Below are positions 11,859-46,483 of a stretch of DNA of 47,504 nt, one piece after another. Every line of letters starts with the position of its first letter. Positions within the stretch are counted from its first letter, which is position 1. The stretch is from an uncultured bacterium (GTDB lineage: Bacteria; Verrucomicrobiota; Kiritimatiellia; RFP12; CAIWXQ01), in assembly GCA_903861045.1 (NCBI GenBank), contig CAIOST010000189.1:1-47504 (forward strand), in the 5' to 3' direction. The position numbers and the translations under genes were made by a program. The notes beneath the pieces are model-generated. The model saw nothing but the letters and a program-made list of their open reading frames with translations, had not been told where the DNA came from and did not search any database.

Positions 11859-14003
11859 TCAATGCGGCAGCAGCGGTACACGCTTGCTCATGGGGTGCTG
11901 GGGCTTACCCCGGACCTGCTGCAACAGCCAGTCGTATAACTCCGGTGACGCATAGACCGTCTCCCAGCAGCGGTGTCCCGCCTTGGGCAGCTCATCGAAT
12001 CGCACCCGGCCGCGCACGTTGCGCAGCGCTGCCACCATCTCACGGCTGCGCTCCGGCGGTATCACATCATCCAAGGCCCCATGCACGACCCAGACGGGGA
12101 CACTCGCAAACCGTTCCACCTCACGCACATCCCCCCCGCCGCCGATCGGCACCACGGCGGCAAACAACTCCGGATGCTCCGCCAGCATGGCCCAGCAGGC
12201 AAATCCCCCCGTGCTAACGCCGGTTAGATAGACGCGCAGCTCGTCGACCGGATACTTGGCGATCACTTCATCCAGCAGATCTTCCAGCGCCGTCACCGAC
12301 CAGTTGCTCTCCGTCGGGCAGCGTGGCGCGATCACTAGAAATGTATCCGGCTTGCACACCCCCGGCTGCCGGACCGCCGCCGCGCCGGCCAGCGCAGCCA
12401 CGGGGGCGCCGCGATCCCCGATACCATGCAGATAGATGATCGTCGGATAATTCCGCCGGCCCTGCGCTTCATACCCCTTGGGTAGCTCCACCCAGTACTT
12501 CAAGGGGGCCAGGCTACCGCTGGCGCGCCGCAGTTCATGCTGCCAGCGCTGGTTATAGCTCCAGGCACTATTGCGTTCCGTGAAGGGCGGTTCGTCGGGC
12601 GGTGCCGCCAGCCAGGCCAGCAGTGCCGCCCCCTCCTCCCGCTCCGCCATGCCTTCCAGCAACATGGCGCGTGCAAAGCGTCCCACCGCCTCTGCTTGAT
12701 AGTCCAACATTTCCGGCTTAAGCCCTAGCCCCTCGGGCAATTTGAGTTCCACCCCCATTTCCAGGTTCTTCCACGCCACCTGATTGGTGGTATTAAACAG
12801 TGTGAAGAAGCGCCACATCGGCGGATGAAACCGCGGGGTGATCGTCACCACCGCACCATAGCGGCCTGGTTGGGCGGCACTGGTCACACGCCGAAATGAC
12901 CCGTCGTAATACGCCACACGCACTTCATGTGGTCCTAGCATCCGCTCCAGCGCTAGCGCGTCATGGAACCCACCGGATGGTAGGCGACTACCCGGGAAAC
13001 AGAACGGATAAAAGCCATATTTCAAAGGAATCTTCTGCTCCCCCCGTTCGTTCTCCAGGTCCAGCAGGGTGACCGCATCCAACATCTGCCCATCCACCTG
13101 CACCTCAAACCGCGACATCTCATCGCCACCGGCCGGCAGGGCGGCCTTCAAACAGGCATAGGACCGTCCACCGTACGCGGTAGTCACCCCCTCCACAATC
13201 GTCTTGTTGTTATAGCGTACCACCACCGGCTTGCCTGCCAGGCGGGCAGCAGCCGCGATGCGAAACCAAACCTCCGAAAGTTGCACAAAGCCGTGCGCCA
13301 CCGCCGCACACGGCGCACTCGCCTGCCCGGCCAATCGCAGGCGATACATGCGGGTAGTATCCCGGTAGGTGCCGACCGCCGGATACCACACCGCGCGAAA
13401 GTCCGGCTTGCCAGGATCACGATCATTCACAAAGAGCTGACAGGCGACTTCCGTGCCGCCGGTTGGCGCGATGCCGAGATTCTGCCACGGTAGCAACGCC
13501 TCCAACAAATAGCCACCGGCCACCTTGGTGCGCGCGGCCAGCAGGCTAGGCGCATTCGTGCGCAAGGCGGCGTCCAGTCGGTAATCATAAAGCCGGCAGC
13601 GTAGCGCCGGTTGGTCATCCGCCAAGCCGGGTGCGATCACGGCCTGAATCATCTGCCGTCCGCCCCACTTGTCTGCCAGGTATATCTCGACCGAATCACC
13701 TTCGTATAACTGGTTGGTCTGCGCCTCTTCCAAGTACTGATCGTCGGTCACCCGTATCAGCACCAGCAACCCCTGGTCATGCCAGCCGAGCCTGACGCGG
13801 ATATCCATATCATCCACGGGGCGCATCCACCCGTCGACCGAGGACATGGTTTCCACGACAAACCCGCCCTCGCGCCAATCGTCATCCTGGCCATCTATTA
13901 CAACCCCATCCAGGCGAGGCACGTCAAACACGCGCACTTCCTCAGCCATGACCGCGGAAACCGCGCCAACCGCGGCCAGTACCAGCACTTTCCATGTCGT
14001 CAT
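11859..14003 (-). CDS. Secreted CBM9-like domain / alpha-beta hydrolase (esterase) fusion
   Basis: A 714-aa exported protein. Residues 1-20 are a signal peptide ending AVMA. Residues about 28-225 resemble a CBM9/DOMON-type beta-sandwich (LDGVVIDGQDDDWRE, YEGDSVEIYL). The middle is unassigned. Residues about 510-700 form a serine hydrolase of the CE1/PHB-depolymerase/dienelactone-hydrolase type, with YLHGIGDRG for the oxyanion region, nucleophile GVSTGG (Ser near 598), acid in ALDDVIP (Asp near 646) and His in AGHRCW (near 677). A likely role is removing acyl groups from polysaccharides outside the cytoplasm; the substrate is unknown. AGGAGGT lies directly before the ATG. A TATAGT box at 14041-14046 (minus strand) could be the -10, but I see no good -35. 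It converges on the giant repeat gene. Confidence 0.85.
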   Translation of the reverse strand: MTTWKVLVLAAVGAVSAVMAEEVRVFDVPRLDGVVIDGQDDDWREGGFVVETMSSVDGWMRPVDDMDIRVRLGWHDQGLLVLIRVTDDQYLEEAQTNQLYEGDSVEIYLADKWGGRQMIQAVIAPGLADDQPALRCRLYDYRLDAALRTNAPSLLAARTKVAGGYLLEALLPWQNLGIAPTGGTEVACQLFVNDRDPGKPDFRAVWYPAVGTYRDTTRMYRLRLAGQASAPCAAVAHGFVQLSEVWFRIAAAARLAGKPVVVRYNNKTIVEGVTTAYGGRSYACLKAALPAGGDEMSRFEVQVDGQMLDAVTLLDLENERGEQKIPLKYGFYPFCFPGSRLPSGGFHDALALERMLGPHEVRVAYYDGSFRRVTSAAQPGRYGAVVTITPRFHPPMWRFFTLFNTTNQVAWKNLEMGVELKLPEGLGLKPEMLDYQAEAVGRFARAMLLEGMAEREEGAALLAWLAAPPDEPPFTERNSAWSYNQRWQHELRRASGSLAPLKYWVELPKGYEAQGRRNYPTIIYLHGIGDRGAPVAALAGAAAVRQPGVCKPDTFLVIAPRCPTESNWSVTALEDLLDEVIAKYPVDELRVYLTGVSTGGFACWAMLAEHPELFAAVVPIGGGGDVREVERFASVPVWVVHGALDDVIPPERSREMVAALRNVRGRVRFDELPKAGHRCWETVYASPELYDWLLQQVRGKPQHPMSKRVPLLPH

Positions 14004-16432: not shown

Positions 16433-19400
16433 CTACTTCGGCAGCACGAAGCGCGGATAGAGCTTGGCGGGCGGCTCGGTCTTGGCATCACGCCCGGCCA
16501 GGCCGGGTGCCATCTGCAGCCAATACTGCACGCCTTTGCCGTCGTCATCATCCATGACGGCGAGATTCAGGCCGAACTCGGCACCGGCCTTCAGACCCAA
16601 TTCCGCCAGCGGCAGACGCACCTCGTAACAGGTCTTCCACTGCTGATCCTCCTCCGCCCGTAAGATGGCGAAGTTCGCCGACTGGGCCAGCTTGCTCCCC
16701 TTCCCGCCTTCCAATTGACGGATCACCGGACCATCCTGTGTCAAAGCCAGGGCCAACGTGCTAGCCACGCCCGCCGGCGATACACACCCGATCTGCAAGG
16801 AGTCCCCTTCCACAATCTGGTCTTCCGTTTTGGCATTCATGTGCACGTCGTCCGTCACTTTGACTGCCAGGTAGAGCGACGTGTCATCGCTAGCCAGATA
16901 GACCTTGGAGCCTAGATCATCGAACCCGATCCAAACCTTCTTGCCATCCATGCCGCCCTTATTGCGACTCTTGACAGGGAAAATCCCGTCGGGGCCACTC
17001 AGGGTGTTGGTCGACAGGCCCCAGTCGTCGAGCAAGCCATCCACCTCCACGGTTTTTTCCAGCCGTGCGACGGGCTTTATGCGCCGGGCGTCCTGCGCCT
17101 CCTTGGATTCCGGCTCGCTGAGCGCCTTCAGCATCTGCGCCGTACCATACATGAACCAATGATAGGCGGTGTCGTTATAGATGGGGGCGTCGACGCGATC
17201 CTCATGCGGAATCGTGACAAAGGCCAGGCTGCCGTTGTAATAGCTGATCGGCGCCATCAAATCCCCGATGCCGGGTTGCCCACCGGAGGGCGTCAGCTTG
17301 CCATTTTTGATACTCCCCATGGTCAACTGCCGGGCGGCCGGGTTACCGGTGGCGAGGTCCAGCAACTGCGGCGACCGACCAGACATGCACAACAGTACCG
17401 ACTGCAGCGGGCCCGTGGCATTGGTGCTCCCCGGCGTGCTGCTGGCGAGCTGCAGCGGCACCGGATCGTAGCGAATGAAGCGGGTTTTCTGCTGATTCTG
17501 CCAGAGCCGCGCGCCAGAGCTGCGGTTCAGCGCCGTCAGCTTGCCATCACTGCAACCGAACACCACCTGGTCAGGGAGCACCACCGGGCAGCGACAGAAC
17601 TCGCTCCCCAGTTCCTGCGTCCAGAGAACCTTGCCATCCGCACAACGCACGGCGCGAGCCGTCCCCTTCTGATCAGCCAGATAAACCACCCCGCCATCGA
17701 CCGCCGGGGTAGAGTCTGATAAACGGGCGATCTCCACGCTCCAAGCCTCGCGCCCACCCGTCACAGGCAGGGCCTGCAGACGGCCACTGGCGGTGATGAC
17801 GTAGAGGTTCTGGTTGTCCGTGGCCACGGAGCCGAAAACCGGCCCCGACAGCTTGGTTTCGCCAAGAATCGCGCCACTAGCCAGATCCAGCGTGTAGAGT
17901 CTCCCGGTGTCGGTGGCCAAGTAGACATCAAGGCCGATCGCCACAGGGCAACCGGTGAGACGCTCGCCCAACAACACCGACCAGAAAGCTCGGCCGGACT
18001 CAGGATCAATGCAATAGAGCTTGCCGTCGCTACCGGGCTTCAACAGCGCACCACCATACATCGTGCCACACGGTCCAAACCCCATACCACCCGTGCGGTA
18101 GGCGGTGGCGGCATAACCACCCACCTCGGCCAGAGGGATGCGCTCATTATAGCCGTAGGACCGGCTGAGGTAGACATTCTGTTCCCCTATCAGCACCTGC
18201 GAGACCGGCACCGACCAACGGGGCAGAACCTTATCCGGTTGCAACTTCTTATCGGCTTCGGCCGTCATCGCCTTGGCCTCATACATGGCCGCGACCGGCA
18301 TGGCGCGCTTGTCCACACGGGCAAAAGAGCCCATGTACGTATTCTGTCCCTCTGCATCCACAATGCCAATCTGATCCGAACCGGACATGGGGCCATAGAT
18401 TTCGACTTCGGTCAACGTCTGCTGCCGGGGCACGGTATTGACCAGCATCACCTGCACCTGATCCGCCCGACAGGGGGGGAACTTCACCAGGCGGAAGAGG
18501 CTGCGATTGTTGCGGACCGACGCCACACGTACATTCTTGCGCTGGTTCACATCCGAGACATAGATATCGAAGTGTCGGGTGGTGTTCTCCTCATCGTACG
18601 CATTAAAGTAGACGGCCACCATGGAGATCCAGCGCGGCACCTTGAGCCCCAGCGCCACCTTCGTATCGCGTGTGCCGAGTGGCGCGTTATACCAATCACT
18701 GCTGACATCATTCAGCCGGCCGTTCTGCAGGAAACTATCCGTCAGCAGGGCATTGGCGATCTGCTCCGTGCGTTGCGCCAGCACGATATTCGGAATCTGC
18801 TCGCGCAAGGTGCCGCCCAGCGGATCGTAATCGCGCTGGAAGAGCGGATTGTGCAGGATGACGGGTTCCACGTCGTACACCGGCGGATGGAGCATGTGGT
18901 TGACACTGGGGAAGCGGATGCGCCGCAGGGTCACGTCATCCACCAGCACCTCACCACCCAGCGCCTGGAAGCCGACTTGGATGGACTTGGGGTCGCCGCC
19001 GCTCTTAAAGACCACCCGGTCGAATCGCCACTCCTTGCCGGACGGCAGGGTGCGCACCACATTATCGGGGTGCCGGTTTGTCACATCCATGCCGGCCAGC
19101 AACTGGGCTGGTTTATCGGGCGAAGCGCTGCGATGGTAGAACTCCAGCACCCAGGTGAAATGCTCACCGATCAAACCTTCGATCTGCTGCTGCACCGGCG
19201 TCGCGCCGATCTTCAGGCTGCGCCGACCTTGATGACCGACATCGGCATACGTGACGCCGCCGGCCTGGGCGGCTTCATTCGTATCCACCTGCCACCCGCC
19301 CTTGGCTTCGCAATCGCCATTGATCAAGCGGCTGCGATCCATGGTCACCAGCGCATCCAATTCGCCGGGTTCGTCAACGAGCGGACGGAAGAGTTTCTCC

Positions 19401-22400
19401 GTACTATCCACAAAGGCCGGATCTAGGCGCGGGAAATCTGTTTGTGCCAGGGAACGATTAAACGGCCCCAGCACCGTGGACCACTGCAAGGTGCCATCCA
19501 GTGCGTAACACATCACGGCCCCGCGCAGGCCTCCCACCAGGAACTTTTGCGAGTCCGGCATAAAGCTCAGCGCAAAACCCATCTCCGAGAGTTTCGCCTG
19601 GCCGACGCGCTTGCCGGTGGCGACTTCATGCACATAAGCCATCCAGTACTCATCCAGGAAAACTAGGTGCTTCCCGTCGGGACTGGCCTGCGCGAAGGTC
19701 GGTAAGTGCGTGAATGTGCCAAAGCGCGCTACCTCCACCTCGCCGGTGCTCGACGCGCGCATCAGGCGCAACGCCGTCGCACCATCGGGGACCAGCACAC
19801 CCAGCGCACCCAGATCAAACATGGCGCCCGTGACCTCGGGCGGATCCTGCCGCAGTGGCGCGAGGTCAGCCCCATAATGCGTCCGCGCCATGGTCGGGCC
19901 GGGTTCGCCCGCCCCCCACGACAAACTACCGCCCAGATCCAACATGGGGCGCTCAGACAGCTTGCGACCCTTGGCGTCATTCAGATCGCGCAACACCAAG
20001 GCATTCCCCTCCATCTGTGCCACCTTGGTGCCGTCCGGACTACAAACAAACTCACCCATGCGGCGGCGGGTAGCACGCCCGTCGTCGCTGATCCGCAGCT
20101 CACCCTGCCATTCCGCCACCAGGCGCAAATCACCGTCCAGCACGCGCATGCTCTCGGTCAGGAAGTCGTAGTAGACCACCCGCCGCTTGCCGGGCAGGTA
20201 GGCATAGCGGAACAGTTCGGTGAAGAGGTTCATCTCCGGCGCCGCCAGGCCGTGGCGGAGCAGATCGGGCGTAGCGCGCTCGCGGTAGGTGGTGCCGCGT
20301 TCATTGATACCAGGATCCATCGTTAAGCATGCCTGGGAGATCGGCTTGCCATCGAGCGCCACCTGGTACAACCGACTGCCGTAGGCCGTGAAAACCACCA
20401 CGCGGTCGCTATCCACATCCAGCCGGCTGGCACCCATCTCCGGCAGCCGCCGGGAAAAGCGCAGTTTGCCAGCCGGATCCAGAGAGTAAAGGTTATCGCC
20501 ATGCCCCCACGTGATCAGGTAGATGTTCCCGGCGGCATCGAACTTCATATCCAAGATATATTCGTTATTGCCGAGGAAGCTCATGGCGGAAGGCCGCGCC
20601 AGTGACTCGCGCCCATCCACCTTCTCCGGTGCGCCGTAGGAAATAGCCGCCTGCGCTTTTTCAGTCGTACTAGCGTTGGCCGTGGTCGCGGCCGGCGACT
20701 GTTCCAGCAGACGATCCACGGCGCGACGCACGCTATCGCCATCATTGGCCACCACGCACAGAGTGTCATACTTCCAATGGAACGCGCGCGAGGCCACCTG
20801 AATCGTCGGCGGCACCGCCAGACCAGCCGACGCCGTGGGCAGTTCCGTCAGAAACCCCTTTTCCGCCAGGCTGTTCAACAGGAACGATCCGCTCGCCGGA
20901 CTCAGGATAATCAGCGGATGATCCACTGCCACACGCGGCGCGATGATCCCCGTTCCGCCTGACCAGTAATGGAACCCGTCCGCTGTGGGATCAGCCGTGA
21001 TCGTTGGGTCGCCAGTGGGCACATGCCATACACTACCTTCCGGGACGACCGAGACCTTCAACCCCTTGGCCCCCAAGCCCGCCACCAACCGTTCGACATC
21101 CTTCGAGACCCCTTCCATGCCACGTCCCAGCACCAGCAAGGCGTTGGTGTTGGCAGTCAGGAAGCGCTGCAGTTCCGACGGATACGGCACATACGGCACC
21201 GTGCTATTCTCCAAACAAAGCACCTTATCTGTGGCCGCGCCACCCTCCAGCGGGATCCGAGCGCTCTTGCCGGAGATGTTTTCCGTAACTTCCAGCACAC
21301 AGCCAGCAGCAGTCAGCGGGATGGCCACGGTCAGGTCCTCGACCGTACTACCGAGGACGCGGTACATGGCATAGAGCGACTGACCCTTGCCATCCAGAAG
21401 ACGAATGCGCGTCGGGAAAGCACCGGTTACGGCTTTCCCGGAAGCCCCCATCAAAGATCCATTCAGCAGCATGGACGTGCGGGCTGCATCCCGCCGCACC
21501 GACAACTGCAACGCAGCGATCTTTTCCGGCAGGAAGGCCACCATCGCACCCTGGCAGCGCGTCATATCCAGCACCAGCGAACGTTCCTGCTGGTTGGTCC
21601 CGGCCGGCCCGAGCGGCAGTTCCGCGCGCGCCAGCAGATCGTAGGCGACTGCGCCGCGATACGCCGCCACGGTCAACGGCATGCGCACCGGCTTGGCCAT
21701 GGAATCCTTACAGGTCTGCTCGTAGTCAGGATCATCGTAGTTGGACATCAGCAGGTAGTGGATCCCGCCGCTGGAGCGCCAATTGGGGCCGACCTTGAAC
21801 GGCCCGCGCGCGGTCGGCTCCGCCCATTCGGCCATACGCGGACGCAAGTAATCGACCGCCCGCTGCGACTTGCTGAAGATGCGCTCCAGTTCATCATCCG
21901 CGGCCGCCGGGTTGTACCCCGCGCCAAGGTAGTAGTTCATGAGGTCGAAATCCTTGAGCTTGATCACGCCCGGCAGCTCCGCATCCAGCGTACTGTCGCG
22001 TTCGACCACGACCTTGCAGCCGGCGGCTATGGCCTTCTGAAGATTTTCCACGGCCCGCGCGGGCAGTTCGCCTTTGAACCGGATGCCGGGAACGAAGATA
22101 ACCTGATACCCCTCGATTGCCTTGGCCAACTCCGGCTCGCGCAGAAAGACCGCCGGGTACCCCATGCGCCAGCAAGCCACCCAGAGCTCCTCTAACTGGT
22201 TGGCCGTCCGGATATTCTTGAACTCGCTGAGCGAGAGCTGCGCCAGCGTGTTGACAATTCCCACCTTCAGATACCCCGGCTGGCACCGTGTCACGAGTTC
22301 GCCAAACGGCGCCAGGATCTCCTTGTTCAGGAGGCGGGTCGTCTCCTTGGCCTTGACCGTATCGGGGTTCGGTCCCTCGGTAAAACTAACAGGCACCCAG

Positions 22401-25400
22401 TACTGGGAGATGCCGTCCGCACCCTCCTGCAGCATGGCGAACGCCATCTGCCGCTGCAACTGACCGTCATTCAGCGTGCTGGACTCCTGATGCATGCCGA
22501 TGTTAGCCCAGACCAAGCGCTTGCCGCCGACCGGCGACTCGCGCTGCAGGGCAATCATGATGGGCGAATGCGGCCAGAAGCCGAGGGTCGGCCCGTCGTG
22601 ATAGTGCTCACTTGCGGCAATATCGAGATTTTCAAAGACATCGGGATGATAGCCGCAGTCGAAATCGGTGGCGGACATCACCGCCCCATAGCCGTTTTGC
22701 ACAAATAGGAACGGCTTGTGGTAGGTAGACATCCTGGCGCGCGGCAACAGATCCCGGCCGGCCGCAGCCAAGCGCGTATTAAAATCGCCCCAGCCGTGCA
22801 TCTCCCACTTGCGCAGCTCCAGGAAGCGGTCCAACGACTGGGGCTTCCAGTTTGCGGGCGCCACCCGCGCATTTTCCACGTTACGGCTCATCTCCTTACG
22901 AATCTGGCTGGGCGTCACATTGGTGAAGATCTCCGCCGCCCGTCGCATCCGCCAGGCCGGGAAGAACGTATCGTGCCGGGCCGGCACACCGACCAGGCCG
23001 GATTCATAGGCCTCCTGATACATATACATGCCATCAAAGGCCGGTGAATGGCGCATCGACGTAACCTCGCGCCGCATCCAGCGTTCGCCGGCATTGATAT
23101 AGCCATCGATATAGCGGGGAATCTGGTTGTCACCCGCAGTATGCAGCACATCGGCGAATTCCAGCCCTTGTCGCACGCAGGCGTTGAGCATCTGGTCACG
23201 CGCCGACGGCAGGTAGATCGCCTCTGGCAACATGAGCCGCTCGTCGGTATCCGCCAATACAGCCCGCGAATCCGCGGCGCGGCCATGGTGATCGGCGGAA
23301 TAGGTCCAGTAATCAAAGCGGTTATAGCCAAGCTCGGCGAAGGTCGCGATCCCCCGATCAATATCATAGGACTCCAGCGCTTTTAGGAACCAGGTGCCGG
23401 CCGTACCTGACGATTGGATCATGCGATAGAGGCTCTCGCGCGGCGCGGCCATCTCAAAGCGGAACGGGAAACAGGCTAGCCCAGCCGGCAGATTGGCCAC
23501 GGTCAGCTCATAACGCCCCGGCAGCAGGCGGCGCGTGATCGTCGCCGGGATGGTCACCGTCTGGCTGGACCACTTCCCGCCGGCGTCCGGGAACACCAGA
23601 CGGTCTTCGCGGCCATCGGGATGCCGCAGCAGGAAGGTGCGCTCCCCTGCCGCCCGCGGGTTACGTGACCGCACGACCGTCTGCAACCGGATGGTTTCGC
23701 CGGGTGTGAAGGCATTACGCCCCTTATTGCTCACGAAAGAAACCGTGCCGTCCTGCTTGGGTTCGATCACGCACCCCGTAAACTCCGCCATCAGCGAGGA
23801 GACCGTCCCCTGCTCCTCCGGCCCGCCCAGCATCACACGGAACACATAGAAGCCATAGGGGACGTCCGGCGCCTGGAACGTCAACGTATCCCCTTCCCAG
23901 GACTGCGTCTCAAATACGGTCCAGGAGCGCGTCGCCTCATGGGCCGGGTCGTACGGCGAATACGCCATGCGCACCTTGGGGCGTCCATCCCCGGCGGGGG
24001 GTGGCGCAAAGACATCGGGGAAGATCAGTTCGAGCAGGCGCCGGTTGAGCCGCAACAACTGAGTCTCATCCAGCGTCGCGAGGCGGGCCACCTCGCGACG
24101 CAGCGCGTCATCGCTCGGTAGGGCGGCAAGCTCTTTGGCATCCAGGAAGGCGCGCTCATACAACCACTCATTGAGCGTACCCAACACCGGCACCAACCCC
24201 TCCGCCAGCTTCGCCTTGTCTGTCGTTGACTGCGCCAAAACCGCCATCAGGCGTTCGGCCTGCCGTGCATCCGTAGTGGTCAGCGCATACTTACAGACAC
24301 GACGGACCACGTTCATTAACGGCGTACTGGCTTTGTCAGGCGCATTCGTGGAGGCCCGCAGGGCCTCGAGCAACGCCTCCGGCTTGCGGAGGTCCGCAGG
24401 AGTCAGCGCCAAGGCATTAGCCTTGTATTGTAAGCGGACCGTTGACGGCACCCCGCGCTCGAAGACGCATCCGCCCGTTTCCAAGGTCATGAGCCGGACG
24501 GCCAGCGCATTCGCCGTGTTGTCGGCCACCACGAACTTGACCGGATAGCGTTCATAGTTGCCAGAGAGCGACAGGCCGAAGCGCATGGAAAGACCCTCCA
24601 CGCCGGCCTTGAAGAGCGGATCGCCACGCGTCGGAAAAATCCGCACCCGGGCTGGGGTCGTGCGGGTCTCGGGTAGCCTGATACCACCGAGCCCGGCCGA
24701 AAGCCCGGTCTTGCTGTTTACCCAGGCCGAGATCGTCAGATACGGAATCATGATACGCGTGCCATCGCAGACCAGGCCGCTAACCTTGGGCTCCTGGAAA
24801 GTCACCTTGCCACCCGGTATCAATTGGAACGGCTGGATGCACGGGCTCAACAGGTAGCCGCTGCCCACGGTGTTCGCCGGTAGATAAACCCGCAACGGAT
24901 AGAAGTTGCGCGCATGACTGAGCAGGTTGGTCGCCACCTTGGAGAGATCAGCCACCTCGTTGCTCAAGGTCAGGCCGGCGGGGATGGACCAGACGCCCAC
25001 GGGACGTCCCAACATCCGGGTATCCGGCGGACCAGCCTTGTCCCCATCCACGCTGAAGACATCCACGCGGTAGGTCTTCAAGGCGACCACCTTGCCGTTA
25101 ATCACGATATCCGGATCCGTGGACGTCAGGGTCCCATCCTTCTCCAGGCGGAAGACGTGGTGGCCGGGTTCAATGACATGTTCCCCCACGGCCAGCGCCG
25201 CCGGATCAAAGGCCAGCTCGGACGTGCGATTGATGTACTTCCCTTGGTAATAGCGCTCAAACGTGTTAGTCCGGTCCACGCTCGCGCCGCGCACCCACAA
25301 CGTGGCATCGTCGCCCAGGACTGGTGTGGTGGCATTCGGACGCTGCCGTGTGACGGAGCCGCTGGTCGGGTCCTCAATGGGCGTAATGGACTCCAGGTCG

Positions 25401-25540
25401 CTGATCAGTTTATCCGGCCGCTCGGCCGCCACCAAGCGCACCAGGATCCGGTTGTCTTGCGACGCTTCCTGGGCCGGGGCTACCAGGGCCGCCAGCCACA
25501 GCACTGCCCAATACCCCATGAATGTACAAGCTCGATTCAT
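16433..25540 (-). CDS. Giant multidomain exported protein: glycosidase-like core, two beta-propellers, CBM9-like C-terminus
   Basis: A 3035-aa protein with signal peptide MNRACTFMGYWAVLWLAALV followed by APAQ. Residues about 737-1050 look like a TIM-barrel glycoside hydrolase of the GH42-like kind (YNRFDYWTYSADHHGR, FDGMYMYQEAYESG). About 1130-1210 resemble the glutamine-amidotransferase-like domain that often follows such barrels. About 1650-2030 form a WD/NHL-like propeller. About 2070-2208 look like a carbohydrate-binding sandwich (LINGDCEAKGGW to VDDVTLRRI). About 2267-2380 are discoidin-like. About 2440-2685 form a PQQ-type propeller (GKLYCIDPESGRAFW, DGKVLWTQELGSEF). About 2825-3035 are CBM9-like (VDGLLDDWG). 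I prefer the ATG at 25540; in-frame ATGs at 25579 and farther upstream put a charged stretch before the signal. It is probably a surface or periplasmic polysaccharide-binding protein. Catalytic residues could not be proven. Confidence 0.85.
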   Translation of the reverse strand: MNRACTFMGYWAVLWLAALVAPAQEASQDNRILVRLVAAERPDKLISDLESITPIEDPTSGSVTRQRPNATTPVLGDDATLWVRGASVDRTNTFERYYQGKYINRTSELAFDPAALAVGEHVIEPGHHVFRLEKDGTLTSTDPDIVINGKVVALKTYRVDVFSVDGDKAGPPDTRMLGRPVGVWSIPAGLTLSNEVADLSKVATNLLSHARNFYPLRVYLPANTVGSGYLLSPCIQPFQLIPGGKVTFQEPKVSGLVCDGTRIMIPYLTISAWVNSKTGLSAGLGGIRLPETRTTPARVRIFPTRGDPLFKAGVEGLSMRFGLSLSGNYERYPVKFVVADNTANALAVRLMTLETGGCVFERGVPSTVRLQYKANALALTPADLRKPEALLEALRASTNAPDKASTPLMNVVRRVCKYALTTTDARQAERLMAVLAQSTTDKAKLAEGLVPVLGTLNEWLYERAFLDAKELAALPSDDALRREVARLATLDETQLLRLNRRLLELIFPDVFAPPPAGDGRPKVRMAYSPYDPAHEATRSWTVFETQSWEGDTLTFQAPDVPYGFYVFRVMLGGPEEQGTVSSLMAEFTGCVIEPKQDGTVSFVSNKGRNAFTPGETIRLQTVVRSRNPRAAGERTFLLRHPDGREDRLVFPDAGGKWSSQTVTIPATITRRLLPGRYELTVANLPAGLACFPFRFEMAAPRESLYRMIQSSGTAGTWFLKALESYDIDRGIATFAELGYNRFDYWTYSADHHGRAADSRAVLADTDERLMLPEAIYLPSARDQMLNACVRQGLEFADVLHTAGDNQIPRYIDGYINAGERWMRREVTSMRHSPAFDGMYMYQEAYESGLVGVPARHDTFFPAWRMRRAAEIFTNVTPSQIRKEMSRNVENARVAPANWKPQSLDRFLELRKWEMHGWGDFNTRLAAAGRDLLPRARMSTYHKPFLFVQNGYGAVMSATDFDCGYHPDVFENLDIAASEHYHDGPTLGFWPHSPIMIALQRESPVGGKRLVWANIGMHQESSTLNDGQLQRQMAFAMLQEGADGISQYWVPVSFTEGPNPDTVKAKETTRLLNKEILAPFGELVTRCQPGYLKVGIVNTLAQLSLSEFKNIRTANQLEELWVACWRMGYPAVFLREPELAKAIEGYQVIFVPGIRFKGELPARAVENLQKAIAAGCKVVVERDSTLDAELPGVIKLKDFDLMNYYLGAGYNPAAADDELERIFSKSQRAVDYLRPRMAEWAEPTARGPFKVGPNWRSSGGIHYLLMSNYDDPDYEQTCKDSMAKPVRMPLTVAAYRGAVAYDLLARAELPLGPAGTNQQERSLVLDMTRCQGAMVAFLPEKIAALQLSVRRDAARTSMLLNGSLMGASGKAVTGAFPTRIRLLDGKGQSLYAMYRVLGSTVEDLTVAIPLTAAGCVLEVTENISGKSARIPLEGGAATDKVLCLENSTVPYVPYPSELQRFLTANTNALLVLGRGMEGVSKDVERLVAGLGAKGLKVSVVPEGSVWHVPTGDPTITADPTADGFHYWSGGTGIIAPRVAVDHPLIILSPASGSFLLNSLAEKGFLTELPTASAGLAVPPTIQVASRAFHWKYDTLCVVANDGDSVRRAVDRLLEQSPAATTANASTTEKAQAAISYGAPEKVDGRESLARPSAMSFLGNNEYILDMKFDAAGNIYLITWGHGDNLYSLDPAGKLRFSRRLPEMGASRLDVDSDRVVVFTAYGSRLYQVALDGKPISQACLTMDPGINERGTTYRERATPDLLRHGLAAPEMNLFTELFRYAYLPGKRRVVYYDFLTESMRVLDGDLRLVAEWQGELRISDDGRATRRRMGEFVCSPDGTKVAQMEGNALVLRDLNDAKGRKLSERPMLDLGGSLSWGAGEPGPTMARTHYGADLAPLRQDPPEVTGAMFDLGALGVLVPDGATALRLMRASSTGEVEVARFGTFTHLPTFAQASPDGKHLVFLDEYWMAYVHEVATGKRVGQAKLSEMGFALSFMPDSQKFLVGGLRGAVMCYALDGTLQWSTVLGPFNRSLAQTDFPRLDPAFVDSTEKLFRPLVDEPGELDALVTMDRSRLINGDCEAKGGWQVDTNEAAQAGGVTYADVGHQGRRSLKIGATPVQQQIEGLIGEHFTWVLEFYHRSASPDKPAQLLAGMDVTNRHPDNVVRTLPSGKEWRFDRVVFKSGGDPKSIQVGFQALGGEVLVDDVTLRRIRFPSVNHMLHPPVYDVEPVILHNPLFQRDYDPLGGTLREQIPNIVLAQRTEQIANALLTDSFLQNGRLNDVSSDWYNAPLGTRDTKVALGLKVPRWISMVAVYFNAYDEENTTRHFDIYVSDVNQRKNVRVASVRNNRSLFRLVKFPPCRADQVQVMLVNTVPRQQTLTEVEIYGPMSGSDQIGIVDAEGQNTYMGSFARVDKRAMPVAAMYEAKAMTAEADKKLQPDKVLPRWSVPVSQVLIGEQNVYLSRSYGYNERIPLAEVGGYAATAYRTGGMGFGPCGTMYGGALLKPGSDGKLYCIDPESGRAFWSVLLGERLTGCPVAIGLDVYLATDTGRLYTLDLASGAILGETKLSGPVFGSVATDNQNLYVITASGRLQALPVTGGREAWSVEIARLSDSTPAVDGGVVYLADQKGTARAVRCADGKVLWTQELGSEFCRCPVVLPDQVVFGCSDGKLTALNRSSGARLWQNQQKTRFIRYDPVPLQLASSTPGSTNATGPLQSVLLCMSGRSPQLLDLATGNPAARQLTMGSIKNGKLTPSGGQPGIGDLMAPISYYNGSLAFVTIPHEDRVDAPIYNDTAYHWFMYGTAQMLKALSEPESKEAQDARRIKPVARLEKTVEVDGLLDDWGLSTNTLSGPDGIFPVKSRNKGGMDGKKVWIGFDDLGSKVYLASDDTSLYLAVKVTDDVHMNAKTEDQIVEGDSLQIGCVSPAGVASTLALALTQDGPVIRQLEGGKGSKLAQSANFAILRAEEDQQWKTCYEVRLPLAELGLKAGAEFGLNLAVMDDDDGKGVQYWLQMAPGLAGRDAKTEPPAKLYPRFVLPK

Positions 25541-25630: not shown

Positions 25631-26458
25631 CTAGTGCGTCAGTGCAAAAAAGATCCAGTTCATGCTGAAGCGGTACACGGGTTCCCGCTGATCATCACCG
25701 GCCATACCATGCGCCCCCTCGCCGAGAGGGTTGAGGGCGGTCGGAGGCGTGGAGATCTCCCAGCGGCAACCATAATCATTCGGGCAGAAGATAATCGCCG
25801 GGCGCCCGCGCACAAAGGCCGCCTGGAAGGGGCGGTTGAACTGCTCTTTGAACAGGTTGGGGTACCCCTCGAAGGCGTACAACATGTTAAACAGGTCGAA
25901 GAACTCCGGCGAATCGCGCAGCATGGTCTTCATCTCGGCACCGGGGATGATGCGCTGCACATTTTGCGCCACGCACTCCATGAACGGGCCGCTCCCTGTG
26001 CAGTCATCTAGCAAGAGCGTACCGCCCCGCTCCACGTATTTGCGCAGGTTGATCACCTCATCGTCCGAGAAGGAGAAGGAGAAGTGGCTGGTGAAGTAGA
26101 CGAGCGGGTAGTCGAAGATCTCCTCACTCGTCACATCCAGCCCCGCGTTATTACAATACCAGGTGAAATCATCATCCGTGCGCAGTCGCATCTGGTAGAG
26201 GAGATACGGCAGCGCGGTCGGGTCGTTCTCCCAGTCCGAGAAGCATTGCGGCCGAAGGCGGCGGATGGTGACCTTGCCACGCACATCCTCATCCTTGCCG
26301 GCCTTCTTGCCGGCGCTGGCCGGATCGTAGATCTTCTGCTCTTTGCTGGCGCCCTTGCGCAGCCACCCCTGCGCTGTGGCACTCCCAGGTGCCAGCAGCA
26401 CAATGGCAAACACCAACAGCAGGCCGGTTCTCGCAAATAATCCCGCACGGCTTTTCAT
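25631..26458 (-). CDS. DUF4159 domain-containing exported protein
   Basis: A 275-aa protein starting at the ATG with GGAGAT 7 nt upstream. Residues 1-30 form a signal peptide (GLLLVFAIVLLAPGSATAQG). The remainder matches DUF4159: the block FDYPLVYFTSHFSFSFSDDE is followed by LRKYVERGGTLLLDDCTGSG, and it ends FSMNWIFFALTH. The domain has a flavodoxin/GATase-like look and is regularly encoded beside MoxR, DUF58 and vWA genes in the PVC group and Bacteroidetes. Biochemical function is unknown. It lies between the two giant exoproteins of the operon, 90 bp from the downstream start. Confidence 0.9.
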   Translation of the reverse strand: MKSRAGLFARTGLLLVFAIVLLAPGSATAQGWLRKGASKEQKIYDPASAGKKAGKDEDVRGKVTIRRLRPQCFSDWENDPTALPYLLYQMRLRTDDDFTWYCNNAGLDVTSEEIFDYPLVYFTSHFSFSFSDDEVINLRKYVERGGTLLLDDCTGSGPFMECVAQNVQRIIPGAEMKTMLRDSPEFFDLFNMLYAFEGYPNLFKEQFNRPFQAAFVRGRPAIIFCPNDYGCRWEISTPPTALNPLGEGAHGMAGDDQREPVYRFSMNWIFFALTH

Positions 26459-26545
26459 GATCGCATCTCCATCACCGTTCCTTTGTGGCACGTGTGCGGT
26501 TTCGACGAAGGAACCCGCACCAACCCCGCCGTCCTTGCGTCGCCG

Positions 26546-29500
26546 CTAGCGCGGCGTCTCCTTCAGAAACAGGGTAGGCACCACCCAGTTCGCCAAATCA
26601 TTATCCAGCCCGTCGCCGCTATCGTCCACGATCAACATCAAGCGATCCGCCTCGTCGAGCTTATCCACTTGCAACGTCTTGGGCAGCGTCATGCCGGTCA
26701 CCAGGCCGGACTTGGTCCGCTCCTTGCCATCCACCAGGATCCGGAAGTTGACGGTCCCCTTGCCACGCGCGGCGCCATCAATCCCGACGATCACTTCCAG
26801 CCGGGTGTACTGCTTATTCAACGGATATTCCAGCACGGTGCCACCCAGGCAGCCAATTCCCGTCGCATACCCCTGCTTGCCGATGGTCAACGCACCGCCC
26901 CAGGCATTGTGATAGAGTTGAGCCGCAACCCCCGCATCGCGATAGGCCAGCGGACTGCAATCGCTCAGATCCACCGCCCCCCCGGCCAGCGTCGTCACGC
27001 GGAAGCCGCCGGAAGAGCCCGGCCCGTCATGCCGCAGCACCACCTCGTTGCGTCCGGCCCGACCACCACGCAAGGCCAGCGCCGAACGCCGCGGACCGGG
27101 GACGTAGACCGACTGGAGGTCATTCGAGGAGACCCCGGGGGAAGGTTTCAAGTTCCACGCCAAGTCTGGCGCGCCATTGAGCGACACGCGTACGCTGCGC
27201 GCATCCGTCCCCATCAACCACATGCGGCTCAACAGCAGATCGCCCGGTTTATCAAGCGTGAACGCGAAGCGCTCCTCGGTCACCCCACGCAGGAAACCGG
27301 CGGGCGGCACGCGTTCGCCGCCAAACACCTTGCCAGAGACGCGTTCCACCTTGTCGCCGCCGGTCACGGTATACCCCGCCACCTGCCGCGAATAGGGGTC
27401 TGCCGGACTAAAGTCAAGTGCCAGCGTATAGTTTGTCCCCGTCTCCTGCGGCTGCAGATTGCGCAATTCATGCGTCACGCGCTCCACGGTCACGGCCGGC
27501 GGGAAGCGCACAAAGAGCGGCATCCCCCCCAGTACCATCTGCTTATCCAGGGCGACAGGCGTACCAAAGGCATCGGTGCCTTTCGCCTCACTCCATTCGG
27601 CGGGGAGGCGAAACGCCCGCGTTCCGCGCGCCCGCCAGAGGACGGCACAGACACCGCCCGCACTCTTTTGCCGGAAGAGGTAGGCGCGATTGGCCAACGC
27701 ATCCCGGTCGGCAATTGCCACCCGCTGCTGCAGTTCCAGATCTGCCAGCGCCTTCTGCAGCTCCAGTCGGACAAAGTACGCCGGCTTGGGGACATAGAAC
27801 GAGCGGGGTGGTTGCGTGAAGCTGTTCCCATAGCGCGGGCGATATACGACGCCGAACGCGTCGCGCTTTTCATCCGGGCCGGTGATCTGGAACTTATGCG
27901 GCAGGAAGTTCCGGGCCTGCAACAGGATCGCGGCACGCGCGTGATACGCGGCTTGATCCAGCAGCGAGAAGCTATCCCCCGTCTCCCAGTCCAGTTCTGC
28001 CAACGCAACTTTGCGGCCGGTCTCCGTCAAATGCAGCTTCGTATCGAGATCGTCGAGGAAATCCTCCAGTTGCAACGCTTCCACGGAGGCGCCGCCGGGG
28101 TTCACGCGCACTTCGAAGCGGTTGAACGGCAGCTTCTCGGGTTCCGGCATGTCGGCCAGGTAGTTCAGGACGCGGTCAAACGTGAAGCCACCTGCCACCA
28201 CACAGGCATTCGTGTTGTAGAGCGAGACCCACTGGCTGAAGACGCGGAACATGTTCGCGTACTTATCCGGCGCCAGATAGACCGGCGACTCTTTCATATC
28301 CGGGCTCTGCCAGAAAACCCAGGTATTGAACTCCGTGGCATGCTCGCGGGCGACGGAGCGGGCAAAGCTATCCCAGTCCGCCAGACGCGCCGGCGATTGC
28401 ATGTAGTTGCCGGTGCCGCGCACATACGAACCATCAGCCAGCGCCGGCTGTTTTTCCGGGCCGGCCCAATCCGCGGCATACCCGACCATCGGAATCATGG
28501 TATAGACATTATTCTCGGACTTAGCGGCCGCAAAGCGACGAATCCAGTTCTGGTAATAGAGATTCGGCACCGGCTCAGCCGTATCCCAGTCCAGATTGAA
28601 CAAGCGCTCCGTGAAGCCCAAATCGGTATTCAGTCCATTCAAGTCCGACAGGCGGGTCATCGGGGTGTCGCCAAAGTACTTCTTGCGGTCCGGCACCTGA
28701 ATATCTGCATCCAGGGTGCGTCCGCCAGGCAGCCCTTCCACGCGCACATGGCAGAACCCTTCCCGCAACTTCTCGCAGAGCGGAACATACGTGCGGGAGC
28801 CGACCGGCAGGCTGGTCTTGCGCACGCCACCATCCACCGGCAACCCCGCCGCCGACGTGAGCCGATACTCGATTTCACTTGTGACCGCATTGGAAGAGAA
28901 ATTTGCCAGCACCATGCGCAGCGGCTCACCGGCCAGATGCAGCATGGTCTCATCCGGGTAGTCCAGCTCGCAGCGCCACTCATCCTCGGGTGCCAGATGG
29001 GTATTCACCTTGATCTGATCCACACGGATGTTGGCTGGCGTGCCGTCGGCCGCACGCGCCGTCAGCAGCAGGTTCAACGGATAGAACGGCGAATAGTACG
29101 GATTCCCGGCGCCGGTCGTATAGTTCGGCGGGATCGCGGGTGCCGCAAAGCGGCAGAGTTTCCACCCCTTCCAGTCCACGAGCACCGGCGGGGCGGCAAA
29201 CTGGTTGTAGGTCATGTCAAAGTCGCGCGAGCCGCTGTCGGCAAAGATCGGCTGCAAGATCACCGGCGCACCCTCACCGCCCCACACCTGCATCTCCACG
29301 CTTTCGACCACGCCGGGCAGAGCCGGATGCAGCATGACGCCGGTCAGGCGATTCGAAACCACGTCGAGCGGCAGCGCATACTTGGTGCCGTCCGCCCCCC
29401 CTGCCACCGGGTCTGCGCCCGGCCCCAGGTCTTTCCCCGGTGCATTGAAGTGCTCCAACCGCTCAAAATCCCAGCAGACCGCCCCGCCGGTCGGCCGGGC

Positions 29501-31204
29501 AAAGACGATCTTCCCCTGTACACGCTGCCCGGGAACCGGGCCGGTGACCACCACCACCGCAGTAACAGGGCCGCGCGGCTTGCCGGCAGCGACCTTGGCC
29601 AGCGCCAGAGCCTTGGTAGTAAACTCGCCGGAGGCCGCCTCCATGGGTTCGGTCAACTCGCACACCGTCGCGCCTACCGCGTCCTGGAAGGTGGCGGTCA
29701 GGCGTCCGCCGCGCAGCTCACTGCCGGAGCCGTTACCCACCGTCACCAGCAGTTGCGCGTTGTCATCCAGCGTCCGTCCCGGCGTGTTGCTGCGCAACTC
29801 CAGCGTCATGCGCTCGTTGCGATTGGCCTGGGTCTCCAGCATGAGATCGTCAATCCAGACCGAGCGCAGCGTGACATTCGTGGCGGCCTCTTTCGACAGC
29901 GGTTCCGGGAGCACCCGCAAGGCGGCCAGATACACCGGCATCTGGATGGGATGCCGGACTTCCTGACCGGAATGCCCCGCCATGTAAGCCATGCTGTCGC
30001 GCCCCGGCAGGCCGTCGCCCATCACAGGCACGCTGAAACAGCGCCACTCTGTGAAGTCCAACCGACAGATCTCCATGCTGGCCGTATTCATAAAGCGACG
30101 GTAGCCCGCTGCGTTAAAGTTACACGGGTCACGCCATTCCAGCATCAGGCGGTCACGGGTGCCATTCCCTTTCACCCAAACGCGGGCTACGACCGGCACA
30201 CCGGGCAACTTCAAATTGCTGCCAATCACCGTCACCGCCGGCGGCAGGTAATCAATCCGGAGACTACGGTTACCGCTATGCCGGACTTCCGTGTCAAAGA
30301 CCGGGGTGGCAAAGGGCTGATAGAAGCTATACAAGGTGCCGGGCAGCCTGCCCGGGTCCAACGGGGTCTTGGGCAAGAGGTAATCGAGCGCGCAGCCGGG
30401 CAGCGCCTTGGCCGCCGGAATATGCCAGTTCGCCAACGTGTCGCCCTCCATGCCCGCGACAGGCGCCAGCGTCGTGGCAAACGGGAAGCGCAGATCGCCG
30501 GCAAACGAGTTCAGCCCCAACGCTTCATTGTTCAACGTAAAGGTGAGATTATACGGGCCAAAGGAGGTATCGCGCTTAGGCGTAATATCCATCTCAAAGT
30601 CTGTGGCCTCGTTCTCTGGCAGTTCGACCGTCAGCGTCCGGCTCGTCAGGTGATTGGCCTCGCCATCCAGCAAATGCCATTCCAGTGCCACCGCCTGTGC
30701 GAGCCCCAGTTTGTTGCGGGCAAAATTAAGAGCCAAGCGCGCCGTGCGGTTGGTGAAATCGCCGGCCACGCGCACACTGTAACTCTCTAGCGCCTGCTTC
30801 GGCTTGAGCATACTTACGTACTCAGCACAGGACAAGCCGAGCGCCTCATCGCGCACAGTGATGCGGATATAGTCGTTGGTGGGCCACACGCCATCTTTGC
30901 CAGCCAACAACGGGAAGCTGGCGGTCGCCGGTTTCCCTTTGCCATCCAGCTTCAGGGCATACCCGTCCGTGAACCCCGGCACAACCTCCCCGCGCAACGA
31001 AAACCCTTTCACGCCAATCAAAACCGTCCGTTCCTTGCCGGCCTCCGGGACGATGCCCGCCGGATCGACCGTCACCTGCACCTGCGGCAGATCGCCGATC
31101 CTAACGACCTTGGCATGAAAGTCCGGCGCCGCATAGCCGATCGTGCTCAGGCCCAACCCTGCAACCGCCAGGAGCAGCGCCACCCATCTAAGATCCTGCT
31201 TCAT
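26546..31204 (-). CDS. Large exported protein with glycosidase-like barrel and NPCBM domain
   Basis: A 1552-aa protein. Its N-terminus MKQDLRWVALLLAVAGLGLS is a signal peptide. The N-terminal half is made of beta-sandwich modules, several looking like galactose-binding folds (HSGNRSLRIDYLPPA; VWIDDLMLETQ). Residues about 842-1118 look like a TIM-barrel hydrolase region, with acidic candidates in FNTWVFWQSPDMKESP and ALAELDWETGDS; their role as acid/base and nucleophile is inference. Residues about 1410-1550 match an NPCBM (novel putative carbohydrate-binding) domain: SPLAYRDAGVAAQLYHNAW, GTVLEYPLN, LEVIVGIDG and VDDSGDGLDND. The start overlaps the stop of the upstream gene by 4 bp, indicating translational coupling with the membrane machinery. 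The antisense strand has a very long open frame here, a GC-composition shadow. Confidence 0.88.
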   Translation of the reverse strand: MKQDLRWVALLLAVAGLGLSTIGYAAPDFHAKVVRIGDLPQVQVTVDPAGIVPEAGKERTVLIGVKGFSLRGEVVPGFTDGYALKLDGKGKPATASFPLLAGKDGVWPTNDYIRITVRDEALGLSCAEYVSMLKPKQALESYSVRVAGDFTNRTARLALNFARNKLGLAQAVALEWHLLDGEANHLTSRTLTVELPENEATDFEMDITPKRDTSFGPYNLTFTLNNEALGLNSFAGDLRFPFATTLAPVAGMEGDTLANWHIPAAKALPGCALDYLLPKTPLDPGRLPGTLYSFYQPFATPVFDTEVRHSGNRSLRIDYLPPAVTVIGSNLKLPGVPVVARVWVKGNGTRDRLMLEWRDPCNFNAAGYRRFMNTASMEICRLDFTEWRCFSVPVMGDGLPGRDSMAYMAGHSGQEVRHPIQMPVYLAALRVLPEPLSKEAATNVTLRSVWIDDLMLETQANRNERMTLELRSNTPGRTLDDNAQLLVTVGNGSGSELRGGRLTATFQDAVGATVCELTEPMEAASGEFTTKALALAKVAAGKPRGPVTAVVVVTGPVPGQRVQGKIVFARPTGGAVCWDFERLEHFNAPGKDLGPGADPVAGGADGTKYALPLDVVSNRLTGVMLHPALPGVVESVEMQVWGGEGAPVILQPIFADSGSRDFDMTYNQFAAPPVLVDWKGWKLCRFAAPAIPPNYTTGAGNPYYSPFYPLNLLLTARAADGTPANIRVDQIKVNTHLAPEDEWRCELDYPDETMLHLAGEPLRMVLANFSSNAVTSEIEYRLTSAAGLPVDGGVRKTSLPVGSRTYVPLCEKLREGFCHVRVEGLPGGRTLDADIQVPDRKKYFGDTPMTRLSDLNGLNTDLGFTERLFNLDWDTAEPVPNLYYQNWIRRFAAAKSENNVYTMIPMVGYAADWAGPEKQPALADGSYVRGTGNYMQSPARLADWDSFARSVAREHATEFNTWVFWQSPDMKESPVYLAPDKYANMFRVFSQWVSLYNTNACVVAGGFTFDRVLNYLADMPEPEKLPFNRFEVRVNPGGASVEALQLEDFLDDLDTKLHLTETGRKVALAELDWETGDSFSLLDQAAYHARAAILLQARNFLPHKFQITGPDEKRDAFGVVYRPRYGNSFTQPPRSFYVPKPAYFVRLELQKALADLELQQRVAIADRDALANRAYLFRQKSAGGVCAVLWRARGTRAFRLPAEWSEAKGTDAFGTPVALDKQMVLGGMPLFVRFPPAVTVERVTHELRNLQPQETGTNYTLALDFSPADPYSRQVAGYTVTGGDKVERVSGKVFGGERVPPAGFLRGVTEERFAFTLDKPGDLLLSRMWLMGTDARSVRVSLNGAPDLAWNLKPSPGVSSNDLQSVYVPGPRRSALALRGGRAGRNEVVLRHDGPGSSGGFRVTTLAGGAVDLSDCSPLAYRDAGVAAQLYHNAWGGALTIGKQGYATGIGCLGGTVLEYPLNKQYTRLEVIVGIDGAARGKGTVNFRILVDGKERTKSGLVTGMTLPKTLQVDKLDEADRLMLIVDDSGDGLDNDLANWVVPTLFLKETPR

Positions 31205-32985
31205 TTGCCTCCTCCTGCCGTCGCGCTCGTATAGCCACTGCGCGTCCGGGCATCATCCCCCCGGGTGGGGGCGCGGGTGACGTTCTGATCGTCACGCTTG
31301 TAATCGGACACTTTCTGTTCAGGCTTCGCGACACTCGAAGGTAGCCCGACGCCGATATTAGGTTTGCCCTCCCCTCTACCGTACTGTTTCGTACCTTTCG
31401 GCCCGCGCGTGTCATCAAACGGCCTCTCGATCGCCCCGCCCATCGAGCCATTCTCCAGATCGTCCGCATGTAAGAAAATCGAGAACCAGGCGGAAACCGT
31501 GGATTGCGCCTTGGGCAGGCGATTGTCGAACGCCTCAATCTGGAAGGAGTAGATATCGCCGGGCTTGCCGGACTGCTCCTGGAAGATGCGCTCGAACGGC
31601 ACAATCGCCAGGATCTTGGAAGGCAGCAACGGGCGTTCAACCTCCCCCTTATCCTGCACGCGGTTGCGGTCATCCGTGTTGGCCTTCTGCCAGCGCAACA
31701 CACACTTGGCCACGCCGTAATCGTCCTCGGCGCGTACCCCGAAGCCATAACTGTTGAGCGCACCGACCGGGCAGGGCATATCCTGCTTCAAGTAGGGCGG
31801 CACAATCAGCTTCGGCGACTTGTCCACCGCGAGGCTGAGTTCCAGAGCGTACGGCATTTCCAGTGCAAAGCCGTGCACATCCTCCACCTGCAGTTTAGCG
31901 CGCCGCTCCTGTGCATGCATAAACGAGAGCGAGGCAAACCGGCCCGCCACATCCAGCGGGATGCGCTCGCCGTCCTCAAAGGTCAGCACCGCCCAACTCA
32001 GCGGCTTACTGAACGTGAACCCCATGCTGACGCGCGTGCCCGGCAGCGCCGTGACACGATCCTGCAAGCCGTCGAGCTCCTTCGGCACCATCCGCGTGTA
32101 GGCCGGGTACGTGAGTTCGGTCTGCATATTCTCAATGACAGGGGGCATGGCGAAGATCAACTGCATCGGCTCCGTAACCCGCCGGCCGAAGCGGAAGCGG
32201 ACCTCGTACTCCCCAGCCAGGGCAGACTGCAACGTCTTGCCAGCCTGCCGCGCCGCATCCACCGGCAGCTTGCTCTGTTCCACGCCCTCCCGGCCCGTCA
32301 GCGCGCTGAGCATCGTCACTTCCGGATAGCCGAAGCGCGTGAAACGGATCCCGGCCACCACATTGGTACCGACCCGATAGACGTGGCGCCCCGCCCCCGG
32401 CACCAGTACATACCGTGTCGGGAACACACGCTCCCGCAAATCCAGCGTGCTACTGCTGACCGTACGCCCCAACCGGGCAAACCCGAAGGGGCTGAAGAGG
32501 CCCAGCGCTAGAAAACCAACCAGCAGCAGGGCAAACCACTTGCCCCAGCGGTTGCGCGCGCTACGGTCCAGCAACTGTTCAAAGGGACGTGCCAGATCCT
32601 GCTGCGCGGCGGCAATCACCGCCTCCTTCATCGGCGTCACGTCGTCATGCTGCAGGAAGTCCACTGCGCTGATCAGCCGGCTGTATAGATCCCCGGCCAA
32701 CTCTTCGATGCGGAAGGCCTCGGAGAGCACCGACCGACGGCGATCCCAACGCAGGATGCTGCGTACCAGCAACACCAGTAGGGCGCCCGACGCCACCAGC
32801 GTCAGCCCTACATTGACAAACGGATTGGCCGTCCAGCCGCAGAGCAGGAGCAGCGATGCCACCCCGATCAGCAGTGCCAGGGATCCCGCCGTGAAGAACA
32901 GGGCGGCATTCCGCAGGCTGCGCCGCACGCTACCGAAGCGGCGGATGCGCAGGTCGAACTGTTTCCTTATCTCGTTCCTATCCAT
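31201..32985 (-). CDS. DUF4175-like membrane protein
   Basis: A 594-aa protein with two N-terminal transmembrane segments (residues about 27-50 and 54-74), a cytoplasmic-looking stretch, a third membrane segment at about 146-168 (FALLLVGFLALGLFSPFGF) and a large presumably periplasmic region of beta-rich character (YPAYTRMVPKELDG, VRAEDDYGVAKCVLRW). This layout and the AEDDYG phrase fit the DUF4175 family found with MoxR/vWA genes. The C-terminus is polar and glycine-rich, hence probably disordered. It overlaps the 1552-aa gene by 4 bp and lies 24 bp from the upstream vWA gene, so it is firmly inside the operon. Function unknown; it may link the vWA proteins to exported clients. Confidence 0.82.
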   Translation of the reverse strand: MDRNEIRKQFDLRIRRFGSVRRSLRNAALFFTAGSLALLIGVASLLLLCGWTANPFVNVGLTLVASGALLVLLVRSILRWDRRRSVLSEAFRIEELAGDLYSRLISAVDFLQHDDVTPMKEAVIAAAQQDLARPFEQLLDRSARNRWGKWFALLLVGFLALGLFSPFGFARLGRTVSSSTLDLRERVFPTRYVLVPGAGRHVYRVGTNVVAGIRFTRFGYPEVTMLSALTGREGVEQSKLPVDAARQAGKTLQSALAGEYEVRFRFGRRVTEPMQLIFAMPPVIENMQTELTYPAYTRMVPKELDGLQDRVTALPGTRVSMGFTFSKPLSWAVLTFEDGERIPLDVAGRFASLSFMHAQERRAKLQVEDVHGFALEMPYALELSLAVDKSPKLIVPPYLKQDMPCPVGALNSYGFGVRAEDDYGVAKCVLRWQKANTDDRNRVQDKGEVERPLLPSKILAIVPFERIFQEQSGKPGDIYSFQIEAFDNRLPKAQSTVSAWFSIFLHADDLENGSMGGAIERPFDDTRGPKGTKQYGRGEGKPNIGVGLPSSVAKPEQKVSDYKRDDQNVTRAPTRGDDARTRSGYTSATAGGGK

Positions 32986-39349: not shown

Positions 39350-39378
39350 TTGAGTACCTCTTCGTTTTTCCACCATCG

Positions 39379-39420
39379 TGACACGGGTAAACAAGCAAAA
39401 AACGTGCCAATCCCGTGTTA
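39379..39420. repeat. Inverted repeat bracketing the sigma-54 promoter
   Basis: ACACGGG at 39381-39387 and CCCGTGT at 39412-39418 are perfectly complementary and sit symmetrically on both sides of the -12/-24 elements. It could be a repressor dyad, a hairpin or coincidence. Confidence 0.45.
39393..39410 (-). promoter_or_regulatory. Sigma-54 (RpoN) promoter for the moxR operon
   Basis: The minus strand reads TTGGCACG-TTTT-TTGCT. This matches the sigma-54 consensus YTGGCACG-N4-TTGCW at every defined base, and the invariant GG and GC are exactly 10 bp apart. The predicted start site (about 39383) would give a leader near 34 nt with AGAGGT before the moxR ATG. Sigma-54 promoters need an enhancer-binding ATPase; no gene for one is in the window. 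Confidence 0.75.
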
Positions 39421-45962: not shown

Positions 45963-45970
45963 GCGGCACC

Positions 45971-46474: not shown

Positions 46475-46483
46475 AATAGCTGT

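Follow-up and report, generated by a model that had tools for sequence, protein, structure and literature searches.

A 3035-residue exported protein with a GH42-like core as a candidate recognition or scaffold subunit of a conserved MoxR/VWA envelope system

To our knowledge, MoxR/VWA operons are widespread and the substrate has been established for few of them. The same exported giant proteins encoded beside membrane components in two phyla, as described here, offer a concrete candidate for what a MoxR/VWA apparatus assembles or displays. In the MoxR-vWA-beta-propeller ternary conflict systems the vWA protein carries a C-terminal propeller, the third component has TPR and propeller regions, and the MoxR P-loop often reads GXXXTAKS (PMC7159879, section 22). 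In the GH42 enzyme BiBga42A, Glu-160 is the acid/base and Glu-318 the nucleophile, and Asn-159, Asp-285 and Tyr-287 contact galactose (PMC10688820). Literature searches on DUF4159 with MoxR/DUF58, on Kiritimatiellota with MoxR, and on Planctomycetes with MoxR, BatA and VWA turned up no account of the gene set within their scope, which excluded most subscription journals.

The window, the 47,504-nucleotide stretch of DNA analysed here, is contig C189 of a 4.7-Mb assembly, and computation on it and its relatives establishes the giant gene, the export signals, the domain order and the co-conservation with neighbouring genes. The giant gene lies on the minus strand at 16433-25540, exactly where the earlier note had placed it without giving a strand, and its translation and orthologues support a product of 3035 aa read from an ATG at 25540 with no internal stop. 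The 3065 aa given in the list of open reading frames result from a GTG 30 codons upstream of this ATG. By inspection, the ATG start fits the signal peptide MNRACTFMGYWAVLWLAALVAPAQ, predicted to span residues 1-24 (25469-25540) with an APA-Q cleavage motif, and the hydrophobic N-terminus of the orthologues likewise ends in A-Q. The GC content by codon position (0.63/0.46/0.77), together with full-length orthologues elsewhere that have no internal stops, shows that this is a real gene.

The gene context, which is absent from the earlier note, is more informative than the domain list. The giant is the last gene of an apparent eight-gene operon that begins with MoxR, with same-strand gaps of 10, -1, -17, 24, -4, 54 and 90 bp from MoxR to the giant. 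All on the minus strand, the MoxR AAA+ ATPase (38339-39394; Pfam and sequence, P-loop GVPGLAKT) is followed by a DUF58 (VWA) protein (37414-38328) and a BatA/VWA membrane protein (35264-37414), both assigned by family match, and by a 756-aa membrane protein with a VWA-type MIDAS motif, a GATase1-like domain and MG2 (33010-35280; family match and sequence). Next come a 594-aa protein with three hydrophobic helices in its sequence and no family identified (31201-32985), a 1552-aa exported protein with a C-terminal NPCBM domain (26546-31204; family match) and an exported DUF4159 protein (25631-26491; Pfam, 1.4e-28). By eye the middle of the NPCBM protein has the look of a divergent TIM barrel, in which D969 and D1072 are invariant among six homologues; it was rejected as a relative of the giant's barrel, since the two give no alignment. 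An hhalign match between the MG2-like region of the giant and the 756-aa protein was likewise set aside, at probability 7. Elsewhere in the window a repeat-rich protein with carboxypeptidase-regulatory-like domains is encoded at 6789-11857 on the plus strand, where one repeat motif recurs in a pair of overlapping frames and a frameshift is therefore possible, and prepilin-like genes lie at 44304-46969 on the minus strand, two with an N_methyl motif and a third PilX-like.

Genes for MoxR, VWA and propeller proteins share this locus, and Pfam bpMoxR hits the MoxR of the window at 1e-11, so the giant could be taken for the beta-propeller part of one of the ternary MoxR-vWA-propeller conflict systems. 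We regard this as highly improbable, given that Pfam matches no propeller in BatA, DUF58 or the 756-aa protein, that the giant has no TPR match, and that the MoxR P-loop reads GVPGLAKT.

G015 and G404 retain the block that runs from BatA to the giant, contig ends limit G005, G453 and G317 to parts of it, and in G466 the operon partners are split over contigs. In G410 and G609 the order has changed and the 594-aa family, DUF4159, the giant and the NPCBM protein are all present, in G410 together with BatA and the 756-aa family. In G611:C233, from a class-mate of the genome of orthologue L031 (record titled Planctomycetota), MoxR, DUF58, BatA, the 756-aa and 594-aa families, DUF4159, the giant and the NPCBM protein all stand together. 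MoxR, DUF58 and BatA are adjacent, as in MoxR/Bat operons, in both the window and G611:C233; in G015, G317 and G410 MoxR and DUF58 are not beside BatA, which makes their part in the system less certain.

The giant core (cut-off E below 1e-40) was found in nine of the 346 genomes of the window's class (G000, G005, G015, G317, G404, G410, G453, G466 and G588). The NPCBM protein, searched outside its common C-terminal domain, and the 756-aa VWA-GATase subfamily (over 430 bits, the next best scoring 262) occur in the same nine, and the wider VWA-GATase family in 116 of the 346. The hypergeometric value for one pair is 5.7e-18 with relatedness ignored, which we read as a strong association and not as a p-value because the genomes are not independent. 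This co-occurrence contradicts the idea that recent domain captures made the giant a mosaic by chance and that its neighbours are incidental, as does the colinearity of all but its CBM9 domain in every member aligned, across two phyla; the confinement of CBM9 to the window clade, and its presence in a neighbouring gene too, would fit such a mosaic, which on balance we find scarcely credible. As it is encoded beside the same envelope-protein genes in two phyla, the giant is probably the outward-reaching part of a cell-surface machine and not a lone enzyme.

Full-length orthologues at 46-61% identity, none with internal stops, come from Kiritimatiellia and one Planctomycetota genome: L018 (G005), L028 (G015), L029 (record titled Kiritimatiellia bacterium) and L030 (Lentisphaerae bacterium) are 57.6-61% identical to the giant and L031 (Planctomycetota bacterium, genome G507) is 46% identical. 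The L028 record is titled Akkermansia muciniphila, a label that is probably wrong because its genome belongs to the window's order and hence, by inference, to Kiritimatiellia. Members at 27-30% identity are found in G410 and G466, of the window's class, and in G608, G609 and G611:C233, of the class of L031's genome. When genome contigs were scanned, a single-sequence query gave no match and an alignment query gave four loci; a search of viral contigs gave no match. A tree made by a quick method groups operon-bearing members into two clades, both well supported, beside relatives that are mostly solo. Such relatives without an operon are common and several are in G507, which encodes a minimum of seven more giant paralogues, 2060-3016 aa long, on contigs C16, C32, C36, C92, C94, C95 and C109, mostly without operon partners. 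The window's own genome also encodes a distant 2288-aa paralogue without an operon (L052:4733-11599). Other giants of 2897-3124 aa have an N-terminal GH42 match (L183:7960-17334, L184:263-9094, L185:565-9417 and L186:1155-9848); giants with such a match (G311, G297, G575 and others) were rejected as family members, having no other segment in common.

Segment HMMs built from 17 core sequences and mapped on all members run colinearly on every member aligned, in both phyla, and together with Pfam matches and profile searches they bear out most of the domain list and order proposed in the earlier note. All on the minus strand, the kept order begins with a conserved N-terminal domain for which segment HMM and profile search identified no relative (residues 29-375, 24416-25456), followed in the window by an insert that is missing in L028 and L029 (376-519, 23984-24415; orthologue comparison). 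It continues with an MG2-like sandwich (520-700, 23441-23983; segment HMM and profile comparison), a GH42-like barrel whose putative fold comes from profile alignment (701-1088, 22277-23440), a GATase-like (GH42M-like) domain (1085-1309, 21614-22288; segment HMM, paralogue match and profile alignment), a second MG2-like sandwich (1315-1438, 21227-21598; in paralogues Pfam places MG2 here) and a second alpha/beta domain (1441-1639, 20624-21220; segment HMM and AlphaFold2, with pLDDT 70-80 at about residues 1460-1500). Profile comparison links the first sandwich to the second (P 6.1e-5). After the alpha/beta domain come beta-propeller 1 (1651-2060, 19361-20590; segment HMM, and a profile match to BamB chains at 9.7e-13), a jelly-roll-like module (2060-2215, 18896-19363; segment HMM, fold by inspection only), an F5/8-type (discoidin, CBM32-like) module (2215-2400, 18341-18898; profile match to a CBM32 structure at 0.0014) and the BamB/PQQ-type beta-propeller 2 (2440-2696, 17453-18223; segment HMM, and Pfam PQQ_2 at 7.3e-35 over 2505-2685 from sequence alone). 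Across 18 relatives Pfam matches PQQ_2 in 16 and MG2 in seven. Profile searches of PDB sequences with the barrel, GATase-1, N-terminal, jelly-roll and MG2-1 segments gave no credible match.

The proposal that the two propellers differ in type, suggesting capture, is not supported, as both match BamB-type propellers and, in several homologues, the HMM of one also hits the other at 1e-4 to 1e-9, a result compatible with duplication or separate capture alike. Both sit at a constant position in all members, so recent capture accounts for neither. The CBM9-like module (2830-3035, 16436-17053; segment HMM, and Pfam at 3.5e-4, below the curated cut-off) occurs only in those Kiritimatiellia orthologues that are near relatives of the window giant and is missing from L031 and from the 27% members; it is the only domain that looks like a late addition. 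An esterase-like protein encoded at 11859-14003 on the minus strand carries a CBM9 at its N-terminus, similar to that of the giant (segment match at about 1e-8), and it is possible that the module has been shared between the two genes. A very long exported chain of fixed architecture, with MG2-like sandwiches and propellers, which are common protein-contact folds, might also be a structural surface protein, such as a sheath, an adhesin or part of a matrix, with domains that mediate contacts between proteins and have no glycan role. The F5/8-type and CBM9-like modules point to sugar recognition instead, as does the GH42-like core, and we consider a purely structural protein quite improbable.

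Pfam Glyco_hydro_42 has no match in the window giant or 18 relatives, the barrel segment has no direct family match and no match among PDB sequences, and a GH42 profile gave no significant barrel match in any giant. AlphaFold2, run with a five-row alignment on residues 520-1655 and on the barrel alone, reached a mean pLDDT of 43 and 38 and did not resolve the barrel (pLDDT 22-45); a fold search with the first model was discarded, all matches having a TM-score of at most 0.08 by query length. A GH42 profile built from 30 GH42 genes of the window's class aligned locally with a score of 37.3 (P 0.0017); the 175 columns involved span the junction of barrel and GATase-like domain in register, and 60 column shuffles reached at most 26.3. 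Because unrelated segments of the giant reach 35.5, this local score alone proves little and only the global mode separates, with P 3.9e-6 over 525 columns, while none of eight controls (five other giant segments, two partner proteins and the reversed profile) did better than 0.019. In global mode the GATase segment alone gives 5.4e-4 and the barrel alone 0.011. The global alignment supports the earlier proposal of a GH42-type barrel followed by a GH42M/GATase-like domain, and a Glyco_hydro_42M match at 3.5e-4, in paralogue G507:C109 only, is weak support for the giant's first GATase-like domain.

Two catalytic carboxylates had been expected within residues 737-1050, and the profile alignment bears this out for one of them. 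E843 (23012-23014, minus strand), invariant in 15/15, falls on the acid/base Glu that GH42 enzymes have at the end of beta-4; there HSPAFDGMYMYQEAY stands beside HPALLAWHISNEING. The position of the nucleophile Glu at the end of beta-7 is I1014 (22499-22501, minus strand), and positions 1013 and 1014 are acidic in 0/16 homologues. Compared with the five GH42 active-site residues (PMC10688820), the giant family keeps E160 and Y287 but not N159, D285 and E318, the Asn-159 position being Q/E/W/D. Since D804, E825 and D982 are also invariant in the homologues aligned, a different catalytic arrangement is possible; we read the core as GH42-like and probably non-canonical or inactive.

The giant might instead be a working glycoside hydrolase, secreted and belonging to a new family, in which the active site is rearranged (E843 could pair with D982 or D804, for instance); its operon partners would then serve to secrete or anchor it. 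The invariance of E843, D804, E825 and D982 and the resemblance of most accessory modules to those of glycosidases speak for such an enzyme, which we hold to be unlikely but worth keeping in view, as the GH42 nucleophile and the galactose-binding Asp/Asn positions are not conserved and an unsystematic look at the annotated neighbours recognised no polysaccharide-utilisation genes (sulfatase, SusCD or transporter).

We therefore favour, with about even confidence, the reading that the giant is an exported recognition or scaffold subunit of a conserved MoxR/VWA envelope system. In such a system MoxR and DUF58, a cytosolic AAA+ and a VWA protein, would be joined by BatA/VWA, VWA-GATase-MG2 and the 594-aa protein in the membrane and by DUF4159, the NPCBM protein and the giant as its exported part. 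We infer that these form a physical complex, driven by MoxR/DUF58 and remodelled by MoxR, and that the giant has a glycan ligand and has lost catalysis. Its core would derive from a GH42-like barrel and a GATase-like domain in which the acid/base was kept and the nucleophile lost, so that it probably binds a glycan instead of cleaving it by the GH42 mechanism, while the F5/8-type, jelly-roll and CBM9-like modules may add glycan contacts and the propellers may supply protein contacts. The tight gene spacing, the same neighbours even at 27-30% identity, the nine-genome co-occurrence and the GH42 profile alignment argue for this reading, and it is weakened by the unmodelled barrel, the near-control local GH42 score, the loci in which MoxR and DUF58 do not adjoin BatA, the common solo relatives and the further invariant acids. 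More tentatively, and with rather less than even confidence, Kiritimatiellia and Planctomycetota might share an envelope machine in which a MoxR/VWA membrane apparatus works with exported glycan receptors or scaffolds of 1500 to 3000 residues built on a degenerate glycosidase core.

Compared with known systems, the giant resembles BamB in propeller 2 by Pfam PQQ_2 and in propeller 1 by profile; its propellers, however, are parts of a giant chain, which reaches 118 bits against TIGR03300 (NCBIfam; cut-off 285.2). With GH42 beta-galactosidases it probably shares the order of barrel and GATase-like domain, along with an aligned acid/base Glu and a conserved Tyr after the predicted beta-6, but it has neither the nucleophile nor a significant single-sequence match, its core sits inside a 3000-aa exported chain, and an MG2-like sandwich stands where GH42 has its C-terminal domain. 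The ternary systems (PMC7159879) likewise combine MoxR, VWA and propeller parts, whereas here the propeller is outside the VWA protein, TPR matches are absent, the P-loop is canonical and the large components are exported. Like the MoxR-DUF58-BatA (Bat/aerotolerance-type) operons, the locus encodes MoxR, DUF58 and a BatA-type VWA membrane protein in one set; it differs from them in the added giant, NPCBM, DUF4159 and 594-aa proteins, and in a VWA-GATase protein that forms a distinct subfamily.
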